64,000 nucleotides of DNA from Citrifermentans bemidjiense Bem (GTDB lineage: Bacteria; Desulfobacterota; Desulfuromonadia; Geobacterales; Geobacteraceae). Both the position numbers and the translations under genes were made by a program. Positions within the stretch are counted from its first letter, which is position 1. Each line of letters begins with the position of its first letter. The stretch is from positions 1,014,501 through 1,078,500 of the forward strand of contig NC_011146.1 of NCBI RefSeq assembly GCF_000020725.1, given 5' to 3'. The notes below the pieces were generated by a model that had not been told where the DNA came from, did no database searches, and was given only the letters and a program-made list of their open reading frames with translations. Shown here one piece after another: positions 3,521 through 62,065 of the stretch.

Positions 3521-4468
3521 GTGAAGAAATACCGCCCGCTCGATTTCTCAGGTGTCAGCACCTACCCCCTCGCCACGCGGAAGAACAAGATGAACGTCAA
3601 GGACGACTTCGCCCTGCCGGTGCGGCCGGGGATGACTGTAGCCGACCTGTTGGCCGCGATGCCGAACCAGTTGGGCTCCCAGTCCCTGAACCGGGTGATC
3701 GACGCCGTGGTCGCGGCGCGCCGGAAGGGGAAGCCGGTGGTGATGGCGATGGGGGGGCACGTCATCAAGTGCGGGCTGCAGCCGGTGCTTAAATCGTTGA
3801 TCGAGGCGGGCGTCGTTACCGCAGTGGCACTCAACGGTGCCGGTTCCATCCACGACTTCGAGATCGCCCTCATCGGCGCCACCAGCGAGGATGTGGGGGC
3901 CGTGCTCCACGCGGGGAACTTCGGCATGGCCGAGGAGACCGGGAGTCAGATCAACGAGGCGCTCAAGAAAGGGGTGGCCCAGGGGATGGGCCACGGCGAG
4001 TCGTTAGGGAGTATGATCCTGGAGCGCGAGCTCCCTTACCGCGAGCAGAGCCTCATGGCCACTTGCGTCAAGAACGGGATCCCCGTCACCGTGCACGTCG
4101 CCATCGGCACCGACATCACGCACCAGCACCCGTCCGCCGACGGGGCCGTCTTGGGGGCGGCGAGTTTCACCGATTTCCGCACCTTCGCCTCCGTCGTCTC
4201 AGAGCTTGGCGACGGCGGGGTCTATCTGAACATCGGGAGCGCTGTGCTCCTTCCCGAGGTGTTTTTGAAGGCGCTCTCCATAGCGCAGAACCTCGGGCAT
4301 CACGTCGATCACTTCACCACCGCGAACTTCGACATGCAGCAGCACTACCGTCCTCTCACCAACGTGGTGAAGCGTCCCACCTCCGGTGAGAGCCGCGGCT
4401 ACACCGTCACCGGCCACCACGAGATCATGATCCCCCTTCTGGCTGCGGGGATACTGGATAGGATCTAG
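3521..4468 (+). CDS. Conserved hypothetical, possibly deoxyhypusine synthase-like
   Basis: A 315-residue soluble protein that I do not recognise with certainty. Glycine-rich segments such as MGGHVIKCGLQP (about 78-89) and ALNGAGSIHDFEIALIG suggest a Rossmann-like nucleotide-binding fold, and the pattern loosely recalls the NAD-binding deoxyhypusine synthase family. A histidine-rich stretch, THQHPSADGA, sits near 205-214. The start is GTG 3521 with AAAAGGA just upstream. It lies between the uronate epimerase and HldE, so a role in nucleotide-sugar or surface polysaccharide metabolism is possible, but this is context only. The catalytic lysine of true deoxyhypusine synthases was not located. 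Confidence 0.5.
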   Translation: MKKYRPLDFSGVSTYPLATRKNKMNVKDDFALPVRPGMTVADLLAAMPNQLGSQSLNRVIDAVVAARRKGKPVVMAMGGHVIKCGLQPVLKSLIEAGVVTAVALNGAGSIHDFEIALIGATSEDVGAVLHAGNFGMAEETGSQINEALKKGVAQGMGHGESLGSMILERELPYREQSLMATCVKNGIPVTVHVAIGTDITHQHPSADGAVLGAASFTDFRTFASVVSELGDGGVYLNIGSAVLLPEVFLKALSIAQNLGHHVDHFTTANFDMQQHYRPLTNVVKRPTSGESRGYTVTGHHEIMIPLLAAGILDRI

Positions 4469-4470
4469 AA

Positions 4471-5161
4471 CCCGTTCAAGGTTCAACGTTCAACGTTCAG
4501 ATTGTTCCTCCTTTATATTGTCGCATGATGCGTGACGGGAGAATCTGAAGCAAACCTGTTCCAATGTTCTACGTTCAGCTTCTGTGTGCTTTTATTGTTC
4601 CGGGGGGGGGCGTGAAAATTGAGCGCTTTGAGGATGTTGACTCTTGGAAAGAAGCTCGTTTGTTGGTGAGTGAGGTATATAAACTACTCGATAATTGCAG
4701 GGATTATGGGTTTAAAGACCAGATCCAGCGTGCCACGGTTTCGGTCATGTCGAACATTGCAGAAGGTTTCGACCGAGGCAGCAACAGGGAGTTCGTGCAG
4801 TACCTTATAGTCTCTCGCGGTTCCCTCTCCGAGGTGAAAAGCCTGACCTATGCAGCTCTCGACATCGGATATTTCGATCATGCCGCCTTTGAGGCGGTAA
4901 TCGCGCGTTGTAACAAGATCAGCAACATCTTAAACGGGTTCATAAGGTTCCTGAAGGCATCGGAACGTAAGGCATAACCCTCAGTAACCTAAGTTGCGGA
5001 CGAAGTCGGATCGTAAGGGCACAATGGCTTTTAGCCTAAGTCATTCGTCAAACATTGAAGTTGAACCTTGAGCGGTTTTCAGGACGAAGTCAGATAGTAA
5101 GACAGATATGACCTTTAGCCTTAGCCGTCTGTCGAACATTGAACGTTGAACCTTGAACGGG
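4471..5161. repeat. Inverted-repeat-bounded cassette around the four-helix gene
   Basis: The left arm at 4471-4498 begins CCCGTTCAAGGTTCAACG; the right arm at 5134-5161 is its inverse with about one mismatch over 27 bases. Both arms are built from the short word GTTCAAC. The left arm starts two bases after the stop codon of the preceding gene, and the right arm ends 14 bases before the hldE start. The only coding content is the four-helix-bundle gene. No transposase and no obvious target-site duplication were seen, so cassette describes the layout and does not claim demonstrated mobility. Confidence 0.7.
4612..4977 (+). CDS. Four helix bundle protein (S23/IVS family)
   Basis: A 121-residue, all-helical protein of the family first known from intervening sequences in 23S rRNA genes and often found as stand-alone genes. 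Typical family segments are visible: SWKEARLLVSEVY near the N-terminus, ATVSVMSNIAEGFDRGS in the middle, and QYLIVSRGSLSEVKSL. The molecular function of the family is not established. The start is taken as GTG 4612, directly after a run of ten G that can act as a ribosome-binding site; an ATG at 4564 would add a hydrophobic tail not typical of the family. Its codon use is less GC-biased than the neighbours, and inverted repeats bracket it, suggesting acquisition. Confidence 0.85.
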   Translation: MKIERFEDVDSWKEARLLVSEVYKLLDNCRDYGFKDQIQRATVSVMSNIAEGFDRGSNREFVQYLIVSRGSLSEVKSLTYAALDIGYFDHAAFEAVIARCNKISNILNGFIRFLKASERKA

Positions 5162-5166
5162 TTTCT
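4998..5166. repeat. Imperfect 84-85 bp direct duplication
   Basis: Two head-to-tail copies, 4998-5081 and 5082-5166, both start GGACGAAGTC and share the blocks TTTAGCCT, AACATTGAA and GTTGAACCTTGA. Each copy contains one inverted-orientation GTTCAAC arm. The second copy provides the outer right arm of the four-helix cassette and runs up to the GGAGG of hldE. Divergence of roughly a quarter of positions suggests an old duplication. Confidence 0.75.
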
Positions 5167-5175
5167 GGAGGTTTT

Positions 5176-6639
5176 GTGGAACGTAGGGAAGTAGAATCCT
5201 TTTTCGAGCGGGCCACTTCGATCCGGGCCCTCGTTGTCGGCGACCTGATGCTGGACGAGTACCTCTGGGGACGGGCGGAACGGATCTCGCCGGAGGCCCC
5301 GGTGCAGGTGGTGGAGGTGGCCAGAGAAGACCTCCGTCTCGGCGGCGCCGGCAACGTGGTGAATAACCTCGCCGCCCTGGGATGCCAGGTCAGCGTCTGC
5401 TCGGTGATTGGTAGCGACGAGAACGGAGCGCTCCTGCGCCGCGCCCTGGAGGAGAAAGGGGCGGGACTGGAAGGGCTTTTCGAGGAAGGCGAGAGAAGGA
5501 CCAGCAAGAAGACGCGCGTGCTCGCGGCGAACCAGCAGATCGTCAGGATCGACCGGGAGACCAAGTCGTCCATAGCAGCCGCCAGCGAGCAGGGGATTAT
5601 CGACTACCTTGCCGCCCGAAGCGGCGACTTCGACGTGATCGTGGTCTCGGATTACCTGAAAGGGGTCCTGACCCCGGCGGTCCTTTCGGCGGTCTGCCGC
5701 AGCGGCAGGGAACTGGGGATCCCGGTGGTGGTCGACCCCAAGGGAAACGACTACGGCAAGTACCGCGGCGCCACCATACTGACCCCGAACCGCAAGGAGG
5801 CGGAAATTGCCTCGGGGGTAGCCATCACGGACCAGGAATCGCTGCAGTGCGCAGCGAGCGGGCTTTTGTCCTGCCTGGAGCTGGACGCGCTTCTCATCAC
5901 GCGCAGCGAGGCCGGGATGTCGCTCTTCCCGGCGGCCGGGGGGGCGGTTCATATCCCGACCGTGGCCCGCGAGGTGTTCGACGTGACCGGCGCCGGGGAC
6001 ACCGTGATCTCGGTCCTTTCGCTGGGGCTTGCCTGCGGCCTCACCATGGCTGACGCAGCCTGGATCGCCAACGTGGCGGCGGGGATCGCGGTCGGCAAAC
6101 TCGGTACCTCGACGGTCGCCCCGCAGGAGATCGTCGCGGAGGTGGGGCACGGTGCTAAGGACAGCGACTCCAAGATCAAGAACCTGGACGTCCTGGCGCA
6201 CGCCATAGCCCGCGAGCACTCCCGCGGCAAGAAGGTGGTCTTTACCAACGGCTGCTTCGACCTTCTGCACGTCGGGCACGTGAAGTACCTGCAAAAGGCG
6301 AGGGGGCTCGGGGACATCCTGGTGGTGGGGCTAAATACAGACGCCTCGGTCCGCCGCCTCAAGGGGGAGAAGCGCCCCCTCATCGAGGAGACGGAGCGGG
6401 CCCACATCCTGGCGGCGTTGGACTGCATCGACTACGTGGTGCTCTTCGACGAGGACACCCCCTTGAAGGTAATCGAGACGCTTGGGCCGGACATCCTGGT
6501 GAAAGGCGGCGACTACAGCATCGAAGGGGTGGTCGGGCGCGAGGTGGTGGAGGCCCGCGGGGGACGCGTGGAGTTGATCCAGTTCGTCGACGGCAGGTCC
6601 ACGAGCCGCATCATCGAGAAGATCCTTTCCTCGTATTGA
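5176..6639 (+). CDS. hldE: Bifunctional heptose-7-P kinase / heptose-1-P adenylyltransferase
   Basis: A fusion of about 487 residues that makes ADP-heptose for LPS inner core in two steps. The N-terminal ribokinase-type domain has [15 protein letters not shown], the [15 protein letters not shown] substrate segment and the DVTGAGDT anion hole/catalytic motif. The C-terminal nucleotidyltransferase domain begins near [19 protein letters not shown], containing the HxGH-type HVGH signature, and ends with [10 protein letters not shown]. The start is GTG 5176 with CTGGAGG at 5166-5171; the ATG at 5146 lies in repeat DNA and would place the Shine-Dalgarno inside the gene. Length matches the fused E. 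coli type. Confidence 0.93.
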
Positions 6640-20884: not shown

Positions 20885-20917
20885 GTTGTCAATTGTCAAT
20901 CGTCAATTGTTAATTGC
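20885..20917. repeat. ATTGACA-word repeat arm downstream of asnS
   Basis: A single arm of TTGTCAATTGTCAATCG type, made of about three near-copies of a 7-8 base word. It ends five bases before the asnS stop codon on the minus strand. The same word recurs at 25701-25880 and 57683-57712. Confidence 0.7.
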
Positions 20918-25701: not shown

Positions 25702-25880
25702 ACCAATTGACAATTGACAATGGACAATTGACAACGAAATACAAACCACTACCACGCAGCGGGCAGTGTCCAGTCCAACTTGAAGCATTGGGGATAATGA
25801 AAAAGGGACGGGCCTGGCGCTAGTTATGAATACCACGGCATTTAGTTGTCAATTATCAATTGTCAATTGTCAATTGGTTT
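25701..25880. repeat. Long inverted repeat of ATTGACA words
   Basis: The left arm at 25701-25735 begins AACCAATTGACAATTGAC; the right arm at 25844-25880 is its inverse, with about 33 of 35 bases matching. Each arm consists of four near-copies of the word. About 108 bases of unremarkable DNA separate the arms. The left arm starts at the last base of the HD-GYP stop codon. A further partial copy at 25890-25905 lies just before the CheX ribosome-binding site. Confidence 0.8.
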
Positions 25881-61939: not shown

Positions 61940-62065
61940 AAAACCCTTGGCAAGGAGAACATCTGAGAGGATCTGAGAAAAGCAAAGACGGAGAGAAACA
62001 AAGCTCCAGCTTCGGTTATTCTCAGACGTCCTCAGATGTTCTCCGTGTTAAAGGTTCAAGGTTTT
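61940..62065. repeat. Second CATCTGAG palindrome, touching the ygiQ start
   Basis: Left half starts AAAACCCTTGGCAAGGAG and contains ACATCTGAG and GATCTGAG; the reverse complement of the right half contains TTTAACACGGAG, ACATCTGAG and CGTCTGAG. It starts four bases after the argC stop and ends one base before the ATG at 62067. The AAGG at 62058-62061, inside the repeat, is the only visible ribosome-binding site of the next gene. Confidence 0.8.

Follow-up and report, generated by a model that had tools for sequence, protein, structure and literature searches.

The window, the 64,000-nt stretch of the Citrifermentans bemidjiense Bem genome analysed here, contains a gene for a 23S rRNA intervening protein (IVP) enclosed by inverted arms of tandem heptamers in the gap between a protein gene and hldE. 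Our best explanation, to which we assign a probability of roughly two in three, is that this feature is a copy, with a gene inside, of a dispersed heptamer-arm repeat, and that the IVP is the trans-acting partner of this repeat, in an organisation resembling that of RAYT genes and their REP sequences and with a hairpin mechanism that we infer. The partnership between IVP and repeat is well supported. That the protein recognises and spreads the repeat is an inference, made without binding or mobility data.

An IVP gene enclosed by inverted heptamer arms

The initial annotation had described a four-helix-bundle gene of the S23/IVS type between two nearly identical inverse arms built from GTTCAAC words, exactly between the stop of one gene and the ribosome-binding site of hldE. 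Each part of this description holds. A repeat search recovered outer arms of 30 nt each that are inverted, 97% complementary and 635 nt apart, and both are made of tandem GTTCAAN heptamers (Table 1). The left arm begins at the base following the TAG stop of the upstream gene (4466-4468), and GGAGG and the GTG start of hldE come immediately after the end of the right arm. Compared with shuffles, the entire cassette folds better (z -3.9), and it meets the 23S IVS-type criterion of terminal inverted repeats forming a long stem. The equivalent outer left arm in genome G014 has one heptamer fewer than in G000. At loci L043 and L063, G000 has tandem duplications of about 75-85 bp that comprise an arm and adjacent interior, and that are absent at L315 and L313 of G014.

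Table 1. Positions of the cassette, its borders and the second heptamer family within the window
Feature	Position	Strand	Evidence
Upstream gene, co-directional, forming the conserved left border of the slot	3521..4468	+	sequence, relatives
Outer left arm, tandem GTTCAAN heptamers	4469..4498	+	sequence and inverted-repeat search
Inner left-arm copy, degenerate, about 84 bp inward	4553..4578	+	sequence; 3-mismatch pattern match at 4559-4576
Nine-G run before the GTG start, probable ribosome-binding site	4602..4610	+	sequence; GGAGG-type sites here in relatives
IVP/S23 four-helix-bundle protein gene, 121 codons and stop	4612..4977	+	PF05635, AF2 model, fold matches
84-bp tandem duplication with inner and outer right arm	4998..5165	.	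repeat families D1, D2
Inner right-arm copy, about 84 bp inward	5053..5078	-	inverted repeat I3
Outer right arm, reverse-complementary to its left counterpart	5134..5163	-	inverted repeat I1, 97%
hldE, conserved right border of the slot	5176..6639	+	sequence, relatives
Array of CAATTGA heptamers, second family, whose cognate IVP is at genome position 418094	20889..20909	-	
Inverted CAATTGA array pair, second family, 172 bp across, too short for an IVP gene	25704..25876	.	

The protein encoded between the arms matches PF05635 (E 4.9e-30), its sole Pfam family, and TIGR02436, and its AlphaFold (AF2) model consists of four helices with a pLDDT of 90. The nearest solved folds identified with Foldseek are 2GSC and 2RLD, followed more weakly by Avd of diversity-generating retroelement (DGR) ribonucleoproteins (4DWL, probability 1.00, TM 0.78, E 0.01; TM about 0.75-0.78 for 4DWL and 8UB7). 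The solved pentamer 2GSC corresponds to the homologue Xcc0516 of Xanthomonas campestris. Judging from the sequence, translation probably starts at the GTG at 4612, a position at which a start codon is found in relatives too. The nine-G tract preceding it differs in length in G014, and translation of the IVP could therefore vary. Ratios of dN/dS lie between 0.05 and 0.13 among diverged relative pairs and reach 0.28 in the closest pair, the latter resting on four changes only; by this measure, the IVP is under purifying selection. In G020, the IVP gene of the cassette (L155) is frameshifted, and the genome still holds more than 150 GTTCAA matches.

Dispersed heptamer pairs in the same genome

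Copies of the arms recur throughout the genome. Pattern search, the only method used for the genome counts, gave 131 matches to the GTTCAAN-array pattern (64 + 67) in about 30 places, compared to 0 for the reversed control pattern. The dispersed copies are mostly gene-less inverted pairs about 100-200 bp apart, and they often lie right after a stop codon and right before the next ribosome-binding site. A common interior sequence among them was rejected, as the sharing of 7-mers between interiors was not clearly beyond that of shuffles.

The initial annotation had also placed empty repeats of the same design elsewhere in the window. This stands only in part: the pattern search revealed no other clear GTTCAAC array within the 64 kb besides the cassette, but arrays of a second heptamer, CAATTGA, are present. 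A degenerate heptamer match, GTTAAAGGTTCAAGGTTT, lies at 62047-62064. The genome contains two further strong IVP genes, at positions 418094 and 715806. The first is enclosed by CAATTGA heptamers, which have about 185 dispersed matches in the genome, with two groups inside the window; the second has no heptamer arms.

The number of repeats is related to the presence of the gene. Within the genus, GTTCAA counts are higher in cassette-bearing genomes (p 0.0013), as they are when GTTCTA is added (also p 0.0013), and GTTCAA- or GTTCTA-type arms agree with the dispersed type of their genome (p 0.0013). For CAATTGA, the highest counts are those of the three gene-bearing genomes (p 0.004). None of these p values is corrected for phylogeny. 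The relation is only partial, and a strict dependence of repeat counts on the gene was rejected: repeats persist gene-less in G013 and G015, which have more than 100 GTTCTA matches without the gene, and in G018, which has 122 CAATTGA matches without a cognate IVP gene.

Arms and insertion slot in close relatives

PF05635 matches occur in 44 of the 48 genomes of the family. We counted as close relatives the IVP genes whose products are 59% or more identical to the window protein. All 20 of them, from 18 genomes, have the heptamer family inverted on both sides, as GTTCnnnGTTC upstream and GAACnnnGAAC downstream. Relatives keeping the gene without arms would have refuted the association, and none was found among the close relatives. 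In the next IVP relatives (42-47% identity), neither GTTCnnnGTTC upstream nor GAACnnnGAAC downstream is present. Moreover, the heptamer shifts jointly in both arms, being GTTCAAC, GTTCTAC (G024, G025, G030 and G032) or GTTCGAC (G033 and G006).

Most genomes of the genus, and also g7, have the cassette in the same slot ahead of hldE, indicating that it is old there. Because it is mostly at this same site in g1 and related genera, inheritance there is mostly vertical. It lies elsewhere in G009, G010, G022 and G036 and in one copy of G006. Empty versions of the hldE-upstream site, which the initial annotation had suggested looking for, do exist: G011, G018, G026 and G027 have only a short slot with nothing in it. 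In G013, G015 and G028 (L246, L248 and L251), the slot is occupied by a RAYT transposase with GTAGGGGCGAATAATCATTCGCCC repeats on its flanks, and that of G022 contains a different repeat family. Intergenic slots of G022 (L244 and L308) carry this other family as CCACAGAGG.../...CCTCTGTGG, with no evident cargo gene at the hldE slot.

Gene pairs that harbor a dispersed copy are variously empty, occupied by a heptamer pair, scarred or occupied by a different repeat in the relatives. One gene pair with a heptamer element in G000 has in its place an inverted repeat with a period of about 6 bp (AAGATT type) in G022 (L305, G022:C1:578100-578420). We searched ten sites in six relatives for a clean target duplication, and none of the eight sites whose junctions were read was decisive. 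The empty sites are too diverged to define the junctions, and with them a target-site duplication, which is a MITE criterion. A clean insertion with target duplication was not seen at these sites, and no transposition event of the cassette or the repeats was seen in the relatives compared.

These comparisons bear on the most serious alternative, in which the IVP is an RNA-binding regulator for which heptamer hairpins in mRNAs serve as sites of binding or processing. The sites would then form a regulon whose dispersal was selected rather than selfish, and the arms of the gene itself would serve autoregulation or be targets of RNase III, like those of 23S IVSs. The position of heptamer copies in gaps near stops and starts would suit such a role, as would the folding of the cassette above that of shuffled sequence, the purifying selection on the protein and the excision of 23S IVSs by RNase III (PMC4990558). 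However, from one close relative to another a given gene pair can have a copy, lack it or carry an unrelated repeat family instead, which is unlike a conserved regulon. Autoregulation also needs no two arms around the gene, and the repeats persist in genomes without the gene. We consider this regulatory reading unlikely, but it is not excluded.

Heptamer arms accompany IVP genes across phyla

If arms were randomly placed relative to such genes, the partnership would be in doubt. Tandem periods from 3 to 15 were scored in 250-nt flanks to both sides of IVP genes, using windows 1 kb away as controls for the Geobacter family. In that family, period 7 reached the threshold upstream of 40 of 93 genes and downstream of 45 of 93, compared to 7 and 1 in the controls, and no other period passed more than 5 times except the harmonic 14. 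An independent cross-phylum sample gave the same picture, with period 7 passing in 34/79 loci versus 3/138 control windows. Genes of other IVP subfamilies with 7-bp-period flanks were found in Geobacter relatives, Bacteroidota, Clostridia, Cyanobacteria and others. Period-7 arms thus exceed the controls by far in many subfamilies and phyla.

The two arms of a gene are also matched to each other. Where both arms scored, they were mutually reverse-complementary with a median similarity of 0.915, compared to 0.549 for random pairs, and the inverted match beat the direct match in 80 of 93 cases. Heptamer similarity tracks the identity of the IVP proteins (Mantel r 0.29, p 0.002; r 0.22, p 0.001 in the cross-phylum set), with the caveat that these tests do not fully remove shared ancestry. 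Paralogues within one genome have differing heptamers. The proposed partnership of the S23/IVS-type protein with the repeat thus gains support from the arms of all 20 close relatives, the enrichment of period 7 and a heptamer type that follows the protein lineage.

A minority of IVP genes in the Geobacter family, notably the 715806-type subfamily, lack heptamer arms. The KDMPVWQ-type subfamily (L064; similarly L093, L094, L095, L097 and L116) is consistently without them and possibly has a different job.

In Cyanobacteria, period 7 passes at 16 of 25 IVP loci, and most of the named plasmid loci examined agree. On plasmids of Anabaena sp. 90 and Pseudanabaena galeata, IVP cassettes lie between cas6 and cas4 (L328 and L329), in Anabaena within a type I-D CRISPR context. 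A cassette on a Nostoc edaphicum plasmid (L323) lies between the genes for both ribonucleotide reductase subunits, in the opposite orientation to both. One cyanobacterium, G145, has a broken IVP gene inside GGGGACT arms and 421 GGGGACT matches in its genome. In two other cyanobacteria rich in this heptamer no such gene was found, and a cyanobacterium with 496 matches shows no IVP. As a single broken gene is all that ties GGGGACT to IVPs, and none was found in the two other rich genomes, the connection is a lead only; a strict STRR1-IVP link in Cyanobacteria, with only one decayed gene behind it, was rejected.

Another enzyme might instead move the heptamer hairpins, a RAYT or other host transposase, with the IVP a passenger or helper in one copy. 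The genome does encode five Y1 transposases (PF01797), all of them elsewhere than the cassette, and the hldE slot of three relatives is taken by a RAYT with its own REPs. Yet none of the five has heptamers within 1.5 kb, and on this ground RAYT was rejected as the carrier of the heptamers. In addition, the GTAG-type palindromes that RAYTs carry are unlike the heptamers, and the gene found inside heptamer arms across phyla is an IVP, not a transposase. We regard this explanation as improbable. That the heptamers are passive simple-sequence repeats grown by slippage, with an IVP gene merely adjacent, could account for the whole-unit differences between the near-identical genomes G000 and G014 but is barely credible given that period 7 alone is enriched, that the arms are inverted and matched at IVP genes across phyla, that heptamer type follows the protein and that the arms are conserved in every close relative.

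Relation to known elements

The cassette shares features with several known systems. Like the 23S rRNA IVSs of Coxiella, Leptospira and Azospirillum, it combines a PF05635 protein with a long terminal inverted repeat. In Azospirillum lipoferum, we found an IVP inside a 23S rRNA gene (Rfam RF02541), flanked by GAGGACG/GATGACA heptamers and their complements, and in the Coxiella IVS tandem GACAGAT heptamers are reported to precede the S23p ORF (PMC4990558). Unlike these, the window cassette lies between a protein gene and hldE rather than inside 23S rRNA, and its arms recur at about 30 other places.

The REP/REPIN and RAYT systems likewise have a single gene between inverted copies of a dispersed intergenic repeat, with non-homologous segments between repeats (PMC2817692), and in sister species a RAYT occupies the very same hldE slot. 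In contrast, the window protein lacks a Y1/HuH domain (PF01797) and forms a four-helix bundle, and its repeats are tandem GTTCAAN heptamers rather than a GT(A/G)G (GTRG) head with a palindrome. Avd of DGRs has the same fold as the IVP (4DWL, 8UB7), and its homology to PF05635 has been noted before (PMC10053308), but there is no reverse transcriptase or template/variable repeat (TR/VR) at the cassette locus, as far as the cassette and its neighbours are concerned. The dispersed copies also lack the conserved shared interior of MITEs. Because the defining features of 23S rRNA location, Y1 transposase and conserved MITE interior all failed, we place the system outside the known families.

In being tandem heptamers dispersed intergenically, the window family resembles the STRR-type repeats of Cyanobacteria. 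Published heptamers include GGGGA(C/T)T in Cyanobacteria and GGGAATC in Xanthomonas (PMC4692102), GGGACCG in 49 places of Geobacter metallireducens (PMC2700814), TAACTGA in Beggiatoaceae (PMC4679880) and the P6b heptanucleotides of the Nostoc trnL intron (PMC4476775). Those of Xanthomonas and Nostoc typically comprise four units and are intergenic, and in Xanthomonas they often form inverted pairs (PMC4692102). As far as we searched, none of these four papers links its heptamers to PF05635/S23, and we found no earlier report of a heptamer-IVP link in the open-access literature, a search that left subscription papers mostly outside.

A proposed model for heptamer arms and their partner

In the reading we prefer, the repeat unit is an inverse pair of arms, each of about three to four tandem heptamers, around a variable interior. 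One or a few copies per genome contain the IVP gene, and dozens are empty. The IVP would act in trans on its own heptamer family, with which it is inherited and diverges, in a RAYT/REP-like organisation that uses an Avd/S23-type four-helix bundle instead of a transposase. Most likely, the IVP acts as an oligomer (its solved homologues are pentamers) that binds the two arms when they pair into an RNA or single-stranded DNA hairpin, although this is inferred. Avd works on RNA together with a reverse transcriptase, which makes a hairpin RNA the most appealing guess. We further infer that the IVP may help such a pair of arms to be copied, or to persist, in transcribed intergenic gaps, the enzymes coming from the host. 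In this view, the 23S rRNA IVS would be the special case of such a cassette in a loop of 23S rRNA. All of the parts are already known, and 23S IVSs may be special cases of the same class.

A broader conjecture, which we offer only tentatively, is that standalone S23/IVPs are partners of heptamer arms throughout bacteria. In the manner of Avd, they would work with a reverse transcriptase or other polymerase on hairpin RNA, copying or extending the arms, and one process would give rise to 23S IVSs, cyanobacterial STRRs, the heptamers of Xanthomonas and Geobacter and the stems built from heptanucleotides in trnL introns of Nostoc.

Many bacterial genomes have an excess of heptamer repeats, and in the literature we consulted the origin and role of these repeats are unexplained, as are the function of S23/IVP proteins and the spread of 23S intervening sequences. 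The tie between heptamers and IVPs gives each of these enigmas a concrete partner. It predicts a binding specificity for each pair of gene and heptamer, and it makes the origin of IVSs and of STRR-type repeats directly testable.
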